From the NCBI GenBank assembly GCA_003116975.1, contig BGKB01000042.1:186001-250000 (forward strand): a stretch of DNA of 64,000 bases. Reading direction: 5' to 3'. The translations under genes and the position numbers were made by a program. Below, in pieces: positions 16,333 to 26,985 of the stretch (positions within the stretch are counted from its first letter, which is position 1; each line of letters opens with the position of its first letter). This DNA comes from Aurantiochytrium sp. KH105 (lineage: Eukaryota > Sar > Bigyra > Thraustochytrida > Thraustochytriidae). A model generated the notes under the pieces. The model saw nothing but the letters and a program-made list of their open reading frames with translations, made no database searches and had not been told where the DNA came from.

Positions 16333-19300
16333 ATGAATGCCATGAAGAAGCTCACTGCCCGCATGAAGCGGGCGCCTCGGGCCCAGGGTGATGACCATGC
16401 GCCTTCTTTCGAGCATGGCGCGGTCGATCAAGATGACGCTTCGCTTCATTACCTTGCGGACGATGATGAGGTCGTCAACGAGGTCGTCCATGAGCATCTT
16501 GACAATCACGGGGACGAAGAAGAGGACGAGTCGTACGACAAAAATATGGCTAATGACGCGTACAGAGAGAGAGATAAAGGAGAAAGCGATGAAGATGACG
16601 ATGATGAGGACGTGAATCATTACGATGATCATGGCGGCGGCGGCGGCGATGGCGGGGAAGGCGGGCATGATGAGGGCAACGACGACGAAGATCGCGCCGG
16701 TAGCGGGAGCGAAGATGAGACGCCCAAGGAAGAAGGCCTCGAGGAAGGTCTCAGCGGGCAACGTGCGGTCAGCAAGGCTATCGAACTGATGCGAAACGGC
16801 GTCAAAACGATTGAGTACGTTGAGAATTTTCTCCTAAGGGAAATTGACCTATATTCAATCCGATTTATTGACATTATTCCCGCAAATTATCCTCAGTCTT
16901 ACCAAGCGTTATATCGGCGACAAAGGGGGCATGGCGCTGGGAGAAGAGCTTGGTACGAACACCTCACTCATTTTGTTGACGTAAGTTAGCGCTTGTGCGG
17001 GATTTTGTCTGATGGAAGCGCGCACATGTTTTCGCAAGGATAGAATCGGAGTTGTCGAAATTGAATGCATTATTGCACAATGCCAGGAAGACACTGACTT
17101 TATGTGCTTGTCGCCATCACCCAGTCTTGAAAAGAATGGGATCCAGGGAGAGGGTGGCGTTGCTCTGGCCCAAGCCCTGCACCAGAACTCCTCGCTTACC
17201 ACGCTTTCGTAAGTCAAAGCTTGTCTCGGAATTGATTAGGAAAAGTGCCAACAAAAGAGATTCTGGTGAAGGCAGCTGGATATTAGCGTCGTGTAACGAC
17301 GCCATTACATAGTAAGCAAGAGACTAACAACCTCAGACTCTCAAAAAATGCAGTCTCAAGTGCAACAGCATTGGTGTCGATGGCGCGTTTGGTTTTGCGC
17401 ACGCATTGACGGTGAACTCCACGCTCTGCTCGCTGAAGTAAGTTGAGCCTCGATCTGTCATAGTGACAAAAGAAAGGACTCGTGCAGGCATCGCCGGAAT
17501 CCTCTGGTCGAGCACTCAGCCCCGATGCCATTATTTCGGTGTTAAAAGAAACCCAAAGCAAAGAGAGGGTCTCTTGGAAAAGAGTTGTTCGAAGACTTAC
17601 ATGGCTCGCTTATTGTCACGACTTCAATAGTCTTGGAAGCGAACAGTTCGAGAAGAGCAATGGCATTGGAGACGATGGGGTCTTGGCGCTCGTCGATGCA
17701 CTGAGCGAGAATACAGTACTCACGTCCTTGGAGTAAGTTGGGGGCTTGAGATAGGTGCAGAGGACTTGTGACGACACTCCTACGCCAAATCCTAAATTAC
17801 AAGACTGACATCTCAAATTAATTTCACTGACAACACACAGTCTCAGCTTCAACGGCATCAGTGCGGTTGGTGGCAAAGCAATTGCAGACTTGCTCACCAC
17901 GAACACGTCGCTGCAAATTCTCAGGTATGTTCTGATGTATCTTGATAATGGTCAACAAGGCAGCATGGGTGTCTTTCTGCGTGAAGGAAGGCAGCTGGGC
18001 GTTCGTGGCGGAGAGCAGAAAGGCGGGACTGCGCCATGACAACGGCGACGGCGAAGGCGACGGCGACATGAGGGTGGGCACTGACAGCCATTTTGCGCTC
18101 ATCAATGAATGCAATAAATGCAATAAATGCCATGCCACACCACAATCATCATGCACAGTCTTGGACACAACGGCATCGGCGACTCGGGCGCCGTAGAGCT
18201 CGGGGAAGGCCTGGGCAAGAACAGGTCGCTTACGTCTTTGAAGTAAGTTGGTTCGGTTTTGTTTTGCTGCCTTTGATTGGAGGCAAGACTTTGAATTGGA
18301 CAACGCAAGAAGGCGGCATGCGTGGACTTCTGCGTGAAGGAAGGCAGGTGGGTGTTCGTGGCGGAGAGCAGAAAGGCGGGACTGCGCCAAGACGACGGCG
18401 ACGGCGACATGAGCGCGGACACTGACAGCCATTTCGCGTTCATCAATGAATGCAATCAATGCAATCAATGCCATGAATGCCATGCCACACCACAATCATA
18501 ATGCACAGTCTTTACAAGAACAAGATCGGCTCAAATGGCGCCGTTGGGCTCGGGGAAGGCTTGGGCAAAAATAGGTCGCTTACGTCTTTGAAGTAAGTTG
18601 GTTCGGTTGTGTTTTGCTGCGTTTGATTGGAGTCAAGACTTTGGATTGGACAACGCAAGAAGGCGGCATGTGTTGATTTCTGCGTGAAGGAAGGCAGGTG
18701 GGCGTTCGTGGCGGAGAGCAGAAAGGCGGGACTGCGCCAAGACGACGGCGACGGCGACGGCGACATGAGGGTGGACACTGATAGCCATTTCGCGCTCATC
18801 AATGAATGCAATCAATGCAATCAATGCCACACCACAATCATCACGCACAGTCTTGGACACAACAGAATCGGCGACTCGGGCGCCGTTGGGCTCGGGGAAG
18901 GCTTGGGCAAGAACGGCTCGCTTACGTTTCTAATGTATGTTGGTTCGGTTGTGTTTTGCTGCGGTTGATTGGAGGCAAGACTTGGAATTGGACAAGAAAG
19001 GCGGCATGCGTGTATTTCTGCGTGAAGGAAGGCAGGTGGGCGCTCGTGGCGGAGAGCAGAAAGGCGGGGCTGCGCCAAGACGACGGTTACGGCGACATGA
19101 GGGTGGACACTGACAGCCATTTCGCGCTCAACAATCAATGCAATCAATGCAATCAATGCAATCAATGCAATCAATGCAATCAATGCAATCAATGCCATGT
19201 CACACCACAATCATCATGCACAGTCTTGAGTCGAACAAGATCGGCGACTCGGGCGCCGTTGGGCTCGGGGAAGGCTTGGGTAAGAACGGCTCGCTCACGT

Positions 19301-22300
19301 CTTTGAAGTATGTTGGTTCGGTTGTGTTTTGCTGCGTTTGATTGGAGGCAAGACTTTGGATTGGACAACGCAAGAAGGCGGTATGCGTGGATTTCTGCGT
19401 GAAGGAAGGCAGGTGGGCGTTCGTGGCGGAGAGCAGAAAGGCGGGACTGCGCCAAAACGACGGCGACGTCGACATGAGGATGGACACTGACAGCCATTTC
19501 GCGCTCATCAATGAATGCAATGAATGCAATCAATGCCATGCCACACCACAATCATCATGCACAGTCTTGAGTCGAACAAGATCGGCGACGATGGCGCCGT
19601 TGGGCTCGGGGAAGGCTTGGGCAAGAACAGCTCGCTTACGTCTTTGAAGTAAGTTGGTTCGGTTGTGTTTTGCTGCGTTTGATTGGAGGCAAGACTTTGG
19701 ATTGGAGGTAAGGCGGTGGCATGCGTTGATTTCTGCGTGAAAGAAGGCAGGTTGGGGTTCGTGGCGGAGAGTAGAAAGGCGGGACTGCGCCAAGACGACG
19801 GCGGCGGCTACATAAGGGTGGACACTGACAGCCACTTCGCGCTCATCGATGGCTGCAATGAATGCCTTGAACGACTTGCCACAATCATCATGCACAGTCT
19901 TGAGGAAAACAACATCGGCGCATCTGGCGAATTCGCGTTGGTGAGTGCTCTTTTGGCTCAGAATTGTCGTTTGCACGAATTCAGGTAAGTTTTGTCTGAA
20001 ATGGCTTGTGCATTGTGTGGATACGTTTTACATCCTTCATACTAATTTAGAATTTCTATTCAGAGGCATACGTCCTCTTCCATCCCTGTCCTGGACGGAG
20101 TTGCTGAAGCTCCCGACAGGTGGTGCTCGTGTAGAGAGAATTTTGGAATTTTACCTGAACGAAGATGGAGAGAAATGGACTCCAGCCGCGCATGACTTAG
20201 CTGGAGAGCACGCAGACCTATTCGCCGTCTTTCTTACTGCTTTATGCGCTTGTTATTTACCAAGTGTGCAGAATCGTCTCGGCAAGGCCGATTTATGGCT
20301 TCTCAGAAACGAGGGAGCGAAGGATGAGGAATTCTCGATCGAGGAAAAAGATTCCGCTATTCCTTTGATTCATGCCCTGTTCGACTGCCGCACAGCAAAA
20401 TCAGAATACTCACTTTCGCGATGGTTTTGCGATGAAGTTCTCGCAAAATGCCTGTCTCTCGAAGATGGGCTCCAGTTGATGATTGCCGAAGATGAAGGCG
20501 GCCGATCTCTTCGATCACTTGCACTCACCAACAAAAACACCAAGAAGTGGGCGAAGACGTATGGCATGTATCTCGATCGTTATAGTATCATGGAAGGCCC
20601 TCCAGTGCATGAATCCAAAACGTGTGCGGTCCACTACGCGACGGATATCCAGAGAAATGAAGCTGTGGCGCTCAAGATCATGCGGAGAAAAGACCAATAC
20701 GATCGCGAGATTGTTGCACGCACAGCTGCAGACGGCGGAGATGCGAATCTTGAAGGCTGTTTACCACTTCTCCACCGCGAGGATGCGAATTTCGCTGAGC
20801 GCCTTGATGAGGAGCTATGCTTGGTGATGACAAAGGGTTCGCGTTCACTGTTTGAAGCCATCAACACGGAGCGCTTTGCCGGCCGTGACCTGCAAAAGAT
20901 TCGGGCGATTGCGTACAAGATTATTTTTGCGGTCAAAGGTCTGCACGACAGCGGTCGAATTCATGGTGACATCAAGCCACGCAACGTTGTGCGTGTCGCC
21001 GCTTCAAGGCAACACACATTCTCGTATGGCGATAAAGGAGATCGTCTCGAGGTGTCAAAAGAATGCCGAGAAGACGTGACGGGAGAGCGTTCTGTCTCCG
21101 CAAGTGACGACGACTGGCAACTTATAGATTTGGACGCGTCGGCACCGATAAATTATGAAAAGGTGCCAAAGAAAAAGAGTGTCGTCACGAACAAGGTGAG
21201 TACTGGCTACGCAGCTCCTGAACTGGCCAAGTGGCACTTTCTCCACGAAGCAAAAGAGGACATGGCCCCCCAGGCCGACCCGGCAATCGACGTTTGGGGT
21301 TTTGGCGTGGTGCTTTTTCAGTTGTTCTCTGGTACAAAGCTCTTCATGGTCGACGACTCCGACGATAATATCGTAACAATTCGCGAACAGACTGAGCTTA
21401 TGAACTGGCTCGGGGTGGACGACGAGCGTCTACATCGCATCAAGCTACGAGAGAGCAAAGAGAAGGGGGAGACAGATGATCTTTGTGCAACTGAATTTGA
21501 TGTCGAGGCCGCCCGTGACCTCGTTCGTCTGTGCTTGCGTGGTGACCCGGGCGAGCGCATCACCGTGAAGCAGATCATCGACGAGCACCCTTTCTTTGAA
21601 TCAATTCGAACGAATACGTGCGAGCCGTGCGAGGAGGTGGATGCCGTCGTCACAAGTACACCAGTGCGCGCGAGCAGATCCAAGACGCGTTTCTCACGCC
21701 GCGTTATGAGTCTGCACAAAGCCATTATTCCGCGTCGGTTCAGCCTTTTCGGACGCACCACAAAAGCGCGGCTGCGCAGAAGCATGACACCGAACGAATT
21801 TTACAAACAAGGTGCTCACAGTGAACTCATAGAGCTCCCGACGTACCACTTTTTCTTGTCGCACATGCAGTTGCAGGCGGCCGGGATCGTTAAGGACCTT
21901 GCAGCTGGCCTCGGACGGCACCAGCTATCATCGTGGATCGATATGCGCGCGTCAGAAATCACACTCGAGTCGATGTATCGAGGTGTTTTGGCATCAAGGC
22001 GCTTTGTCATGGTTCTCACGAAGGACGTGCTCTTCAGACCATACTGTCTCGCAGAGCTTTACTTTGCGGTTGAGTTCTTCAAAACTTCGTCTCGATATGA
22101 TGATTTGGAATGGAGCATCTTCTTTATCGTCGAGATGGATGATCGCTTCGATCCGTGGAGCGAGAGTGATGTGCCTTGGCGTGAAGGAACGGAAGCGGAG
22201 GGGGATCAACGTGCCATAGAAGCCGGTGAATTGAGAGAGACGCTAGACAACCTAGGTTTGAAGGATTGGAAAGGCGGTCCCGCGAAGTCAGAGGAGATTC

Positions 22301-22899
22301 TGTTTAACGCGAAACAAGCACTCGAACATTGCAAAAAGATACCTTACCGTCGTCGCCTCTATGAGGAAGAGGCAATGCTTCAAGCTCTCATCAAGCATGC
22401 TGGATTCGATACATTTCCCCCTGCCAGAAGCGCGAGCTCGGAGGAACTTTCGATTGTAGTTGTTGGAATGGCGAGTTCAAGGTTTACGAAAGAGCTTCTC
22501 AAGAAGCTTGAAAAAGAACACGAAAAACTCAATGTGGATATTACTCTACTTCACAATAAGTCTGATGCTGTCGAAGCGTCATCAGTGGTTGTCGTGGTTT
22601 TGCAACAAGGCTGTCAAGATGAAGTGGAAAGTGCTTTAGCTTCGAATCAGCTCGGTACACAGCCTGTCTTGGCCATCGCGGTCGAGGATAAATGGGAATT
22701 CGATGAAGCTCACAAGGGCGAGTTTACCCCAGAACTTCAGAGCAGGCTCTTCGACCACCTGGAAGTCTTGATGTGGCGTCCACCTCGGTCAATAGGAAAC
22801 TGCAACGTGGGCCACGAACACTCTGCACTCATCGACGAGCTCTGTTCCCGCGCACGAAAATTGAGGAATGGAAGAGCGCAAGGACCAGCGCCTGAATAA
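16333..22899 (+). CDS. LRR - protein kinase - TIR-like receptor protein (13 exons)
   Basis: Exons are 16333-16814, 16897-16980, 17125-17208, 17354-17437, 17631-17732, 17841-17924, 18159-18242, 18509-18592, 18851-18934, 19224-19307, 19565-19648, 19898-19984 and 20064-22899. All introns are GT-AG and phase 2, and the total of 4263 nt gives exactly 1420 residues. Residues 1-150 are very acidic. Residues ~155-476 are RNI/NLR-type leucine-rich repeats of 28 residues, one per exon (for example IGDSGAVGLGEGLGKN). Residues ~645-915 form a kinase-like domain: VALK (Lys680), HGDIKPRN (Asp778) in place of HRD, DLD (831-833) in place of DFG, AAPE, and DVWGFGVVLFQLFSG. From 1069 a TIR-like domain reads YHFFLSH, SSWIDMRASEITLESM (Glu1111 at the place of the catalytic Glu of NADase TIRs), VMVLTKDVLFRPYCLAEL. 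A second Rossmann-like segment follows (1270-1390). I infer a cytoplasmic immune- or stress-type sensor, as there is no signal peptide or membrane span. Confidence 0.88.
17925..19984 (+). repeat. Tandem array of six intron+LRR-exon units (318-373 bp each)
   Basis: Units are 17925-18242, 18243-18592, 18593-18934, 18935-19307, 19308-19648 and 19649-19984. Each consists of an intron of 234-289 bp followed by one LRR exon of 84 nt (87 in the last). Introns are almost as alike as exons: all carry gtgaaggaaggcag, gcggagagcagaaaggcggg and gacactgacagccatttcgc in order, then a variable aatcaatgc microsatellite and the acceptor catgcacag. The first unit has a different 5' intron part and the last is the most diverged. 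High intron identity implies recent unequal exchange. Confidence 0.92.
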
Positions 22900-23327
22900 A
22901 AATAAGTATTTGAATCGCCTTTGCGCCATGTATCGAGAGTGCGCTGCACTTTGCTGCAAATCTTCAGCAACTTCATCGACTTTCCGCGCTTACGTGGCTA
23001 AGCGTATCGCTATGAAACCTCGCGTCACGTTCTTGAAACAATACCGAGCTATTCTACACAGTTCGTCTCGACTCGTCGCAAGAGTCACCGATTTAGAAAA
23101 ATGTTATCGATCAAGTCTCGGGAGGAGATCAAAACTTTTGACGCGGAATTTCGTTGCAAGCGTACGCCAAAGTCTCACGTGATCATAAACTTTCGGAAGC
23201 CCGGTCTCGTCACCACGGCGATTGCAAGCTTCCACATTGCTAAACAAGTTTTGATATTCCGGCTTGTTTCCCGGGTGGTGATGACGATCTTTCAGGCAAA
23301 CCAACAAACTCGGGACGCGAAGCGAAG
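22900..23327. other. Short intergenic spacer
   Basis: Spacer between the LRR-kinase-TIR stop and the PhyH start. An open frame at 22868-23182 overlaps the end of the upstream gene and has no recognisable feature. Nothing else is seen. Confidence 0.5.
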
Positions 23328-24269
23328 ATGACTATGTTGGTCTCCAACGTGGCAAGGACAGCCAAGAGGAAGACGGCCCGAACGCTGTCAGCCCTGCCGC
23401 GCCGACTGTCCTCGACCACTGCGCCAGTCGTCTCTGCCGACGCGTCAGCCAAGCTCGCACGAGATGGTTTTGTCGCGGTCGGCAAGGTACTCTCACACGA
23501 CGAGGTGCAACGCGCGCGCGGCCGCTTTGAGGACCTCTTCAAGGGCAACTTCGACACGGGCATCTATCCAGACGAGTGGCACTGGCGCGAGGGCATCTCC
23601 AAGCCCGACGCCTTTCGTGAGATTGTCAACGGCTGGAAGGCAGACTCCCAAATCGCTGGAATTGTACGATCCCCAACGCTCGGTAAACTTGCCACGGAAC
23701 TCATGGGCTGGCCTCACGGTGCACGACTTGCTCAAGACGATGTGCTCTGGAAGCCTCCTTTGGCAGGCGGCGTCGCGTTTCATCAGGACTCAGCCTATAT
23801 ATCTGCACAATTTAAACCGTACGAGAACAATAGCGTCACCATCTGGATTGCCCTTGATGATGCAGATCAAGACACTGGCGTTGTAGAATATTGTGTTGGC
23901 TCTCATCTCTGGCCCAACAACAAGGCCAAGGAAACAACCGCCAGCGGGTCCGCTTTTCATGGCCAGGCCCATCATCTTGGCCCACTTGCTCAAGCTGCGC
24001 GCAATGCAGGGGTCTCGGATGCAGATATTGACATTCAGCGGATCACTGTGCGCGCAGGCGAGGCAATTGTACATCATCAGGACGTGTGGCATGGCAGCGC
24101 TGCAAGTGTATCTTCCACCCGCCATCGACGCGCTCTAGGTGTCCACCTCGTTCGATCTGACGTAACGTGGCGTGACACCCGTCGACCGGACTATATTTAT
24201 GGACGTTACTACCTGCCTCAAGAGGCAAGCCCACGCGACGAGTTCTTCCCTCAAACGTACACGCCATGA
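23328..24269 (+). CDS. PhyH-family Fe(II)/2-oxoglutarate dioxygenase
   Basis: A single exon gives 313 residues from ATG 23328. Phytanoyl-CoA-hydroxylase-like enzymes use Fe(II) and 2-oxoglutarate to hydroxylate a substrate. The metal triad is visible as His152-x-Asp154 (FHQDSAY) and His255 (HHQDVWHGS), with basic residues at 265-268 (RHRR) suited to 2-oxoglutarate binding. PGV-like contexts are replaced by DTGVVEYCVGSH, which is typical of the family just after the HxD strand. The first 30 residues (RTAKRKTARTLSALPRRLSST) are basic and Ser/Thr-rich without acids, which looks like a mitochondrial targeting peptide. The substrate cannot be told from the sequence; many protist PhyH proteins act on small molecules or halogenated or lipid substrates. 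Confidence 0.88.
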   Translation: MTMLVSNVARTAKRKTARTLSALPRRLSSTTAPVVSADASAKLARDGFVAVGKVLSHDEVQRARGRFEDLFKGNFDTGIYPDEWHWREGISKPDAFREIVNGWKADSQIAGIVRSPTLGKLATELMGWPHGARLAQDDVLWKPPLAGGVAFHQDSAYISAQFKPYENNSVTIWIALDDADQDTGVVEYCVGSHLWPNNKAKETTASGSAFHGQAHHLGPLAQAARNAGVSDADIDIQRITVRAGEAIVHHQDVWHGSAASVSSTRHRRALGVHLVRSDVTWRDTRRPDYIYGRYYLPQEASPRDEFFPQTYTP

Positions 24270-24990
24270 CGGGATCGTAAAGTAGAGTTGAAAAATATCG
24301 CATTCATCATGGCAGACACGTTCTCCCAAGCAAAGCAGCACTTGCATTCGAAGGTATTTTGCCTTTCAGCCAGCATCGACCCAAAACAAACTTTCATCTT
24401 TTGGAAAGGTTTGACTTGTTTCGAATCATTTCAAGAGCTTCATCCTCCCGCCCAATAGTGAAGGAAACAAGTGCTTGCAATCTGCCAATCGCAGCAGCGA
24501 TCCTCTCTGCATGAGCATGAAGCCATTCGCGGGTCTGCAGCAATACTTGGAAGCTGTGACCATGAGTTGAGCAATAATAAAATCTGTGTGATGTTGCGTA
24601 AGCTTACGTCATTGTGACACATGGATTTAAGACGTCTTGGAGCCGGGTCCACTGGAGGTTTCGAATTGATACGAGTCATGTGCGCTGGTAGCTATAAGTT
24701 GAGCACTTAAGTTTGTGCATTGGTAATCATACGCCATTGTGGCAAGTGAATTTCTTACCTCGTAAAGCCGAGTCCACTTGATGGTTTCTAATTGACACGA
24801 GTCATTCATGTGCGCGCATATCCAAGTGCGCGAGTCAAACGAGCGCAATGATCTCGCTCTACATACTTTACAAAATTAAGATCTCACTTTGGTGTTCCGC
24901 TCACGTTTCCTTCGGAGACACCCTGGGATTGCAGGTACGCCAACTGTTCGCTCCGCTTGCTATTCATTTTGATGCTTGCTCCTCTGCAGG
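24270..24990. other. Intergenic, AT-richer
   Basis: The downstream flanks of two convergent genes (PhyH and the IQ protein) meet here. A diverged duplication occupies 24565-24815. I see no gene. Confidence 0.5.
24565..24815. repeat. Diverged direct duplication, ~120 bp
   Basis: Copy 1 is about 24565-24685 and copy 2 about 24698-24815. Both run from gttgagca through cattgtg, gagtccactgg/gagtccacttg, aattgayacgagtca to atgtgcgc. There are many substitutions, so the duplication is old. Confidence 0.6.
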
Positions 24991-26985
24991 TTAATTACCA
25001 TCGTCTGGCTTTTCGTCGGTTGGCGACTTTTTCTCCTCAAATTCTGTACTCGTCCCCAGTGCGTCAGCATTCAGTTTGTCTTCTTCCTTTTCAGACGATG
25101 AGTCGTGGTCCTCGGGATTTTCATTGCGGTCGCGCTCCGTCACTTCACAGCTTTCCAAGGCCTCCGTCTTTCCTCGATCTGCTTTTTTGCTTTCAACAGC
25201 AACATCATTCGACTTTTCATCGATCGGAGACTTTGCAGTTTCAGGCTCTTGACTCGCCCTATCGGGCTCCTGACTTGCCTTATCGGGCTCCTGACTCGCC
25301 TCATTGTGCTCCTGACTCGCCTCATGCTCGATTTTACCTTCCTCCACAACCTCAACTTCTTTGATCGCTTCATCTGCCTCAGCATCCTTTTCCGTCAAGG
25401 CCATCTTGTCATCAGAGTTTTCACTCATGCAAATCGCCGCATTGGCGTCCGATGCCATGGCCTCAAACATCTCGTCAACGTGATCCTCAAGACCCTCGAG
25501 GATCTCTGCCGATTGGGCCAAATTTCGCGCGGATTGCGAAACGCGAGCGAGATGGCCCCTCGTAACAGCCTGAATCTGGACCGCGGACTGACTTCGCGAC
25601 AAAACGCGCTTGCGTTGTTGTCGTCCTCGCGCAAGGGCCTGCACCTTGACAGCCGCCATTGTCTGTGCCTTGCGTTCTTCGCGAGCGTGATGCCCACGTA
25701 CAACAGCTTGGACCTGCGTCACGCATCGTCGTTTCGCCGCAAGCTCGCTGCGTATAATGCGCCCACGAGCCAAGGCTTGGGCCTTTGTAGCAGCCTCCTT
25801 CTTCTTTTGCAAGACTCTACGCTCGTGACGCGCACGCGCCATTGCTTGAACTTGGGTGGCTGCCTTGTGACGGCGCTTGATCTCTTTGCGATCGCGCTGC
25901 CCGCGCGCCAGTGCTTGCACCTTCGTCGCGGCCCCATGCTGACGAGCCTGTTCTTTCCGCACCGCGTGCCCACGCGTCACAGCCTGAACCTTTTGGGCCG
26001 CAATAGTACGATTACGATTCGCCTTTCGCACAAGCTTGCCCCGCGCTGCAGCTTGAACGGTTGTCGCCGCACGCGCTTCCTCCTTTTCGCGTTGTTGACG
26101 CACAAGAAGAGCGCGCTGCATATGGCCTCGAGCCACGGCCTGAACCTTGGTTGCAGAGGCGATCAACGTGCTTTTGAGCACGAGCGACGCAAGCATGCGC
26201 AAGGCTCGCGCCGCTTCCGAAGCCTTGTTCACCATCGCGTCCTTGTGCAACTGCTGCAGACCCGCAAAGATTTCCGCGCGCGGTGCTTGAACGCCCAAGA
26301 TCACCAGATCCGATCGCAGGTGTGCAATGTCCCGCTTTCCCAGAGGCTTGCCCCGAATAAGGGCCAGCAGCGAGGAGAGGAAACGATGTACCGTGGGTTC
26401 CTGCACGCGACTGTCAAAGTCATGCGACAGCTTCAGTACGGCGCCGGCATAATCAAAGGGTGGTCGCGGCCTCCTCTTTTTCGCAACGCCGAGCCCAGGC
26501 CCGGACTCCACCGAGCCAATGCTCATCATCATCGCAGCGCCACTGGCGCCGCCACCTCCGCCAGGAGAGACCGGCCCGATCGCCTCACTCGCATTCGCAG
26601 CGCTCGCGGCCCATCTTCGAGCCAGTTTCAAGAGTTGGTCGATGCGACGATCCAGATCTGCAGCGAGCGTCTCGTTTCTTCGTCGCGTCGGCCGCGCAGC
26701 GTTTTTGCAGAGTAGCTCGGACCGAAACGTGCTAGCGTCGACGGCTGCTGAGGCCGCGGCAGCTGCGGCAGCGGCCGCGCCAGAAGCGCCAAGCGACCCG
26801 GCACTCAGATACAGCGCGCGCGTCTGTTCCACACGCTCCTCTGGCGATCCGAGCGGCGCCAGCACCACGCCGGCGGACTTTGACCGCGCTGCGGGCGTCG
26901 CTCGACCCGGAGACTTGGACCTTGAGCGCGCCGCTGCGCGCGACCGCGGTCTTGACGCTGCTGTCGCCTTCGTCTCCTCCACCAT
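24991..26985 (-). CDS. IQ-motif repeat protein (calmodulin-binding type)
   Basis: The ATG at 26985 (MVEETKATAASRPRS) starts a 664-residue protein without introns; the longer upstream frame has no ATG. The first ~170 residues are basic, with RSRSKSPGR and a poly-Ala run. A helical middle part precedes nine IQ-like motifs of the form KVQAxARGxxxR, spaced 22-27 residues apart (for example TKVQALARGQRDRKE). IQ motifs bind calmodulin or calmodulin-like light chains and occur in myosins, ASPM and IQD-type scaffolds. No motor domain is present. The C-terminal ~150 residues are acidic, with an ASQEPD/ASQEPE repeat. A calcium-responsive scaffold is the likely role; the partner is unknown. Confidence 0.85.
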   Translation of the reverse strand: MVEETKATAASRPRSRAAARSRSKSPGRATPAARSKSAGVVLAPLGSPEERVEQTRALYLSAGSLGASGAAAAAAAAASAAVDASTFRSELLCKNAARPTRRRNETLAADLDRRIDQLLKLARRWAASAANASEAIGPVSPGGGGGASGAAMMMSIGSVESGPGLGVAKKRRPRPPFDYAGAVLKLSHDFDSRVQEPTVHRFLSSLLALIRGKPLGKRDIAHLRSDLVILGVQAPRAEIFAGLQQLHKDAMVNKASEAARALRMLASLVLKSTLIASATKVQAVARGHMQRALLVRQQREKEEARAATTVQAAARGKLVRKANRNRTIAAQKVQAVTRGHAVRKEQARQHGAATKVQALARGQRDRKEIKRRHKAATQVQAMARARHERRVLQKKKEAATKAQALARGRIIRSELAAKRRCVTQVQAVVRGHHAREERKAQTMAAVKVQALARGRQQRKRVLSRSQSAVQIQAVTRGHLARVSQSARNLAQSAEILEGLEDHVDEMFEAMASDANAAICMSENSDDKMALTEKDAEADEAIKEVEVVEEGKIEHEASQEHNEASQEPDKASQEPDRASQEPETAKSPIDEKSNDVAVESKKADRGKTEALESCEVTERDRNENPEDHDSSSEKEEDKLNADALGTSTEFEEKKSPTDEKPDDGN

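Follow-up and report, generated by a model that had tools for sequence, protein, structure and literature searches.

Can one chain of a microbial eukaryote join a sensor of leucine-rich repeats (LRRs), a protein kinase and a TIR domain, and what would such a protein do? The question is raised by a gene at 16333..22899 on the plus strand of a 64,000-nucleotide (nt) stretch of the thraustochytrid Aurantiochytrium sp. KH105 (contig BGKB01000042.1, here contig 42 or C42, positions 186001-250000), which we call the window and whose numbering is used for the gene throughout. An earlier note, made from the letters of the sequence, had proposed this combination of domains and described it as unusual. 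We consider the existence of a gene with the LRR-kinase-TIR architecture nearly certain, and we read its product, at a probability of roughly 55%, as a cytosolic, innate-type receptor that would sense through its LRRs and gate, by its kinase, a TIR domain that cleaves nicotinamide adenine dinucleotide (NAD). Genome-wide searches covered the organism's own assembly (76 Mb, 367 contigs).

The exact, in-frame splicing given in the earlier note could be reproduced: 13 exons yield 4263 nt and 1420 amino acids (aa) with a single terminal stop and no internal one, and removal of intron 1 (16815-16896) closes the reading frame. A Pfam search of the whole translation returns LRR_6 (5.9e-41, eight stretches), Pkinase (5e-19) and TIR_2 (1.3e-8, residues 1072-1148), all above cut-off and as the note had supposed, together with a second TIR match, PF01582, at residues 1309-1388 (1.9e-4; 21.7 bits, cut-off 21.3). 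In the window gene, only a predicted intron, 19985-20063, connects the LRR array to the kinase-TIR exon, and here a neighbouring LRR gene and a kinase-TIR gene might have been wrongly joined. We regard such an artefact as exceedingly improbable, and reject it on the strength of the splice sites at the junction and of intronless relatives. In a permissive scan of 18 genes, an in-phase acceptor stands at the LRR-to-kinase junction in every gene, and in 15 an LRR-like stretch ends in a donor 49-87 nt upstream of it (not found in L012, L025 and L026, and irregular in L018, L020 and L021; L numbers denote loci of this genome). Two relatives hold LRR_6, Pkinase and TIR_2 within a single intronless frame, L027 in 1313 aa and L038 in 1385 aa of the fetched stretch, and the architecture is therefore independent of the splicing inference. 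In L038, TIR_2 scores 25.7 bits, under the cut-off of 28, and Pfam lists no second TIR.

The order of the three domains in one chain recurs, as in these two intronless genes, among relatives in the same genome. A query made of the two successive C-terminal TIR folds, TIR1 and TIR2, matches 130 places and a kinase query 32, and the two sets coincide by contig position at 26 loci, the window locus included. We fetched 21 of the other 25 (L009-L028 and L038). Alignment A1 holds 17 members, drawn from 21 sequences, and a Pfam scan of the last exon only finds Pkinase and TIR_2 in 17/17, so that the domain set is not a product of chance. Three gene pairs share 95-97% identity and are apparently allelic, for which reason the haploid gene number is below 26; the paralogues are spread over many contigs. 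L019, with internal stops, and L012, with a frame break, are probably broken copies, and about eight places (on C5, C6, C21, C33, C41, C47, C95 and C215), outside the distant TIR group, that match parts of TIR1 or TIR2 and have no kinase match, some with stops, look like fragments. Two places match the kinase alone (C96:215828-216808 and C182:81341-82321; 51-52% identity, 506-aa frames) and are a possible stand-alone partner or kinase source. Adjoining the kinase-TIR gene L028 (C9, near 55203), another TIR gene is encoded on the opposite strand, in a frame of 923 aa or more.

The output half of the protein is encoded by exon 13 (20064..22899, +), which runs from a helical linker through the kinase, TIR1 and TIR2 to the stop codon. 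TIR1 (residues about 1063-1255; 21823..22401, +) has an insertion before its last strand and carries the motifs FLSHMQ (1073-1078), W1100, D1102, a Glu at the catalytic position (E1140) and the tail IPYRRR (1235-1240). The earlier note had named Glu 1111 as a conserved candidate catalytic residue, and this we reject, as only 8 of 21 rows have Glu at that position, the others K, R, Q, G, T, A or L. It is instead E1140, within CLAEL, that is kept, in 19/21 rows, with Gly in the near-identical pair L025/L026. The frame of that pair is intact despite the Gly, and the two are possible decoy or scaffold members. A profile of nine TIRs compared to solved structures finds AbTIR, Cat1, RUN1, L6, TLR1/2 and, more weakly, SARM1, among others; phmmer with the TIR-TIR region against the PDB, unlike the profile search, found nothing. 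The profile aligns E1140 to the C-helix Glu of AbTIR and Cat1, which we take to be catalytic, and TIR1 thus has Glu where an enzymatic TIR would be expected to have it.

Structure prediction agrees with the TIR fold that had been proposed. A model of residues 1058-1420, built from 24 aligned sequences (mean predicted local distance difference test score, pLDDT, 83.3; predicted template-modelling score, pTM, 0.83), shows two successive beta-alpha folds, the first with five strands and the insertion ahead of the last. The best Foldseek match of this model is the plant TIR receptor RPP1 (2.4e-6), followed by RPV1, RUN1, RPS4/RRS1, Roq1, SNC1 and SARM1, and the isolated TIR chains among these (RPV1, RUN1, Roq1, SNC1, SARM1) give template-modelling scores, relative to the target, mostly of 0.63-0.72, with a few of 0.49-0.53. 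RPP1 is likewise the first Foldseek target of a longer, 944-residue model. The second fold, TIR2 (residues about 1263-1420; 22423..22896, +), lacks helix B in the model and the FLSH motif in the sequence, and its catalytic position is not conserved. By its predicted structure, the C-terminus forms another TIR-like fold, a degenerate one, as the earlier note had suspected, and the window protein's own PF01582 match is in keeping with this; as a feature recognizable by sequence it did not hold for the family, since that threshold is reached by 1 of the 17 members scanned, the window protein.

Could TIR1 be a scaffold rather than an enzyme and leave the output to the kinase, much as animal Toll/IL-1 receptors signal through kinases? 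The Gly that replaces the catalytic Glu in L025/L026 would fit such a role, as would the retained catalytic residues of the kinase described below. We nevertheless think it unlikely, given the conservation of Glu 1140 in the rest of the family, its presence also in the aligned WD40-Roc-COR-TIR proteins of the same genome, and the NAD hydrolases among the closest solved sequence relatives.

The kinase domain itself (residues about 641-992; 20557..21612, +) follows a helical linker with no Pfam match (residues about 477-640; 20065..20556, +). Its motifs are Lys 680 of VALK, HGDIKPRN (776-783), DLD (831-833) and STGYAAPE (855-862), so that neither the Arg of HRD nor the Gly of DFG is kept. These two alterations, noticed at the outset, prove to be properties of the family: HxDxKPRN is found in 20/20 rows with data (19 HGD, one HAD) and DLD likewise in 20/20. 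The VAIK-position Lys is kept in 19/19 rows with data, and the catalytic-loop Asp and Asn and the metal-binding Asp are invariant in A1. The window kinase has the residues characteristic of eukaryotic protein kinases (VAIK Lys, HRD Asp, loop Asn and DFG Asp), and because these are retained it is not obviously dead despite HGD and DLD; a clearly dead kinase was rejected on the same ground, and its motifs suggest a kinase of the non-RD class, possibly an active one. Kinases of this class are frequent in the innate immunity of plants. The glycine-loop region is replaced by a signature, EGPPVHESKTCAVH, with few changes across the family. Among solved structures, the A1 profile is matched best by CLK and DYRK kinases, over positions about 190-330. 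The best PADLOC match is mad6 (2.2e-21), which we read as a resemblance between kinases and nothing more.

The sensor half has a modular construction. Exon 1 (16333..16814, +) contains, in the spliced model, the start codon and an acidic, low-complexity N-terminal region (aa 1-160); the N-terminus is charged, and by tblastn residues 1-161 match paralogue L017 at 71% identity. There follow 11 LRR exons with one LRR apiece, all entering in phase 2, nine of 84 nt, one of 102 and one of 87. Exons 2-6 (84, 84, 84, 102 and 84 nt, phase 2; 16897..17924, +) include four, exons 3-6 with the 102-nt exon among them, that have counterparts in paralogue L013; exons 7-11 are five tandem exon-plus-intron modules with 84-nt exons (18159..19648, +); and exon 12 (19898..19984, +) is the final LRR exon, of 87 nt. 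In scans of upstream DNA, the count of LRR exons ranges from 2 to 18 between genes, with some arrays cut by contig ends, and is zero in L019, L027 and L028. The window and 17 loci together have 189, with phase 2 a condition of the scan, which overlooked the first LRR exon of the window gene.

Evidence of recent amplification and of unusual divergence is apparent in these modules. Likeness among the window modules amounts to 75-93% for exons 7-11, 91-96% for introns 7-10 (257-289 nt) and 85-88% for intron 11. We compared 55 adjacent module pairs from nine genes, kept if their introns were at least 80% identical over at least 75% overlap and thus a selection from the neighbouring pairs in a set of 164 modules; the pairs are non-independent, and two of the nine genes (L023 and L024) are probable alleles. 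Introns differ by 9.1% and exons by 16.3%, the introns being more alike than the exons in 45/55 pairs and less alike in 10/55. Nonsynonymous p-distance is 0.455 at LRR codons 2, 3 and 5 and 0.107 at the other codons. Codon 2, at 0.594 per site, is near saturation, with two or three bases changed in 40/55 pairs; codons 3, 5, 8 and 9 stand at 0.309-0.455 (codon 8 at 0.400, codon 9 at 0.315), codons 17, 25 and 26 are somewhat variable too (0.206-0.248), and codons 1, 4, 6, 7 and 10 are little changed (0.018-0.097; codon 1 at 0.042, codon 4 at 0.018). From LRR geometry, codons 2, 3 and 5 of the LxxNxI frame presumably lie on or beside the concave strand face. Recently amplified LRRs thus show an excess of change on their predicted ligand face.

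This excess belongs to some LRR arrays and not to all, and is strongest in those recently amplified. Between loci, codons 2, 3 and 5 compared with introns give 0.622 versus 0.066 for the window and L009 (five window modules, one L009 module), 0.514 versus 0.046 for L013 and L015 (eight modules against two), 0.417 versus 0.212 for L020 and L021, and 0.156 versus 0.059 for L023 and L024. Two findings here speak against the receptor reading given at the start. The excess is missing in L025/L026 (0.083 versus 0.076) and L010/L011 (0.037 versus 0.052), both likely allelic arrays that were not recently amplified; and synonymous change is also high at codons 2, 3 and 5 (0.440, versus 0.159 at the others), which a plain selection model leaves unexplained. 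Gene conversion might instead have recently homogenized the framework and the introns and spared older exon variants, in which case the excess at codons 2, 3, 5, 8 and 9 would report no ongoing selection. The likeness of window introns 7-11, the agreement of synonymous with nonsynonymous change and the two likely allelic arrays with no excess all fit such a process. The little-changed codons, however, interleave with the variable ones, and conversion tracts would therefore have to end at single codons if selection did not preserve the variants, which leaves conversion by itself possible but doubtful. A more speculative idea, which we hold to be quite improbable, is that the modules are diversified codon by codon in a directed way, through targeted mutation, conversion over very short tracts, or germline or somatic rearrangement; if true, the kinase-gated TIR receptors of a microbial eukaryote would make up a repertoire that is combinatorial and adaptive-like.

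Constraint on the output domains can be gauged from the two haplotypes. A probe beside the receptor (23300-24300) is found at two places, at 100% on C42 and at 97% on C300, and L009 is for this reason taken as the homologous copy of the window gene; alleles were called by 95-97% identity for the three pairs above and by the neighbouring gene for this one. Receptor coding DNA is 84-95% identical between window and L009 in 250-nt steps, and the flank 92% at 22901-23400 and 93.5-99% at 23401-25900; the neighbouring gene (23328-24269), at 97.1%, is less divergent than the receptor. Over 944 codons the ratio of nonsynonymous to synonymous divergence (dN/dS) is 0.41 overall, with 0.53 for the linker, 0.26 for the kinase, 0.21 for TIR1 and, from 29 changes, 1.13 for TIR2; in six other pairs it is 0.11-0.34 for the last exon. 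Kinase and TIR1 are under purifying selection between the two haplotypes. The receptor dS of 0.181 far exceeds the DNA difference found for the neighbouring gene, 2.9%, so the receptor copies are older or have been exchanged with paralogues. The window gene and L009 group together in a tree of 20 rows (100/99), which favours long-kept alleles.

Haplotypes that diverge more than their flank are compatible with balancing selection for identity no less than for defence, and the same architecture could serve self/non-self recognition (allo- or mating) or development. Variable LRR arrays and divergent haplotypes would then label individuals, and TIR activation would kill incompatible fusions. The many copies and modular LRRs suit such labelling; set against it, the paralogues lie on many contigs, and no mating gene was recognized by eye, with no dedicated search, among the window's 13 ATG frames of at least 330 aa. 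We judge this use of the receptor to be rather improbable.

How, then, does the protein compare to known systems? Plant TIR-NB-ARC-LRR receptors such as RPP1, Roq1 and RUN1 likewise have an LRR sensor and a TIR output in each chain and many copies, plant TIR structures lead the fold matches of the window TIR region, and by model and alignment the window protein shares with them a TIR fold that has Glu in the catalytic place. It differs from them in having no NB-ARC match (Pfam, E up to 1), a kinase in the middle, and the reverse order, LRR first and TIR last, plus a second degenerate TIR. Toll-like receptors also combine LRR and TIR; here Pkinase stands between the two, and hydropathy gives no clear membrane span. 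The design is non-standard beside both, as the earlier note had argued. SARM1 resembles TIR1 in its TIR NAD hydrolase fold, and the window protein has no ARM-SAM match in Pfam; LRRK/ROCO kinases differ in that no Roc or COR match is found here.

For the LRR exons, precedents exist. According to passages of PMC11378527, the LRR-ROCO candidate immune receptors of brown algae have 72-bp phase-2 LRR exons that are shuffled, with positively selected concave sites, and passages of PMC6564038 describe tandem arrays of 90-bp phase-2 LRR exons in Tetrahymena, some fused to a protein kinase. One LRR per fixed-length phase-2 exon is common to the brown algal genes and the window gene (9/11 of whose LRR exons have 84 nt), and since brown algae and Tetrahymena have it, by these accounts, the single-LRR exon design was already known. 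The window gene differs from the former, as far as those passages go, in exon length (84 nt, not 72) and in its kinase-TIR rather than Roc-COR output, and from the latter in length (84 nt, not 90) and in its TIR, a term absent from the main text of PMC6564038. No LRR-kinase-TIR protein is among the literature matches listed, from a search that mostly left out subscription journals; going by those matches, the joining of the LRR exon design to kinase and TIR is the new part.

In the receptor reading that we prefer, the protein would be germline-encoded and intracellular, one of a family of the innate-immune kind. Its RI-type LRR horseshoe would bind ligand, and its array would grow and shrink by duplication of one-LRR exon-plus-intron modules. 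Binding would alter the state of the central non-RD kinase, which sits where plant TIR receptors have their NB-ARC switch; the kinase would phosphorylate itself or a partner, and oligomerization would bring TIR1 domains together to cleave NAD+ through Glu 1140, giving a signal or cell death, with TIR2 a degenerate copy that may hold or cap TIR1. In this account the binding of a ligand, the gating by the kinase, the cleavage of NAD, the location in the cytosol and the role in defence are inferred.

Several observations weigh against this account. One hydrophobic helix (526-544, mean 1.76) comes near the usual membrane threshold, the protein being otherwise clear of evident spans, so that the cytosolic place of the receptor is only presumed. 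Foldseek also matches the TIR model to unrelated Rossmann proteins (GlmS at rank 2, 1.2e-5, and YphC/EngA; root-mean-square deviation 18-20), and the Gly at the catalytic position of L025/L026 means that some members may not cleave NAD. The kinase has EGPPVHES in place of the standard GxGxxG loop, and its C-lobe is poorly modelled in the 944-residue model (mean pLDDT 63.3). Scans of prokaryote genomes and viral contigs gave no relative, with one or two patterns each that were short and strict and would therefore miss distant relatives.

The layout, with a protein kinase at the place of the plant NB-ARC, differs from both plant and animal builds of immune receptors. Should the mechanism hold, sensor-switch-TIR receptors have been built more than once, around different switches, and the diversification of LRRs through exons of one repeat each gains a setting beyond brown algae and Tetrahymena. 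The family offers a testable system for infection or non-self recognition in microbial eukaryotes.

The kinase-TIR genes lie in a genome that appears TIR-rich and NB-ARC-poor. TIR_2 gives 258 candidates in the assembly, of which at least 150 sites are above cut-off (all 150 scored), allelic copies included, and NB-ARC gives two low-scoring matches (27 and 25.2 bits, cut-off 23.5). Among five distant TIR loci sampled, four encode WD40-Roc-COR-TIR proteins (L029, L030 and L033 by Pfam, L032 by eye), and L031 has a TIR with no other Pfam match, as does L034. Of the 125 places matched by a Roc-COR query, 60 reach at least 63% identity, a count that does not imply TIR content at these places. With a WD40 propeller, Roc, COR and TIR in a single frame, these proteins form a second TIR family, possibly a bigger repertoire than the kinase-TIR receptors; TPR-ROCO-TIR of Chondrus crispus, as passages of PMC11378527 present it, is a precedent, with TPR where WD40 stands here. 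Other layouts include an ANK-TIR frame (L035:1-2040), with ankyrin repeats, a SAM-like stretch seen by eye and then TIR, and L037:3-2312, which joins TIR_2 to an NPHP3_N-type NTPase by Pfam in another layout like that of nucleotide-binding LRR (NLR) proteins and which L036:1-1449 resembles by eye.

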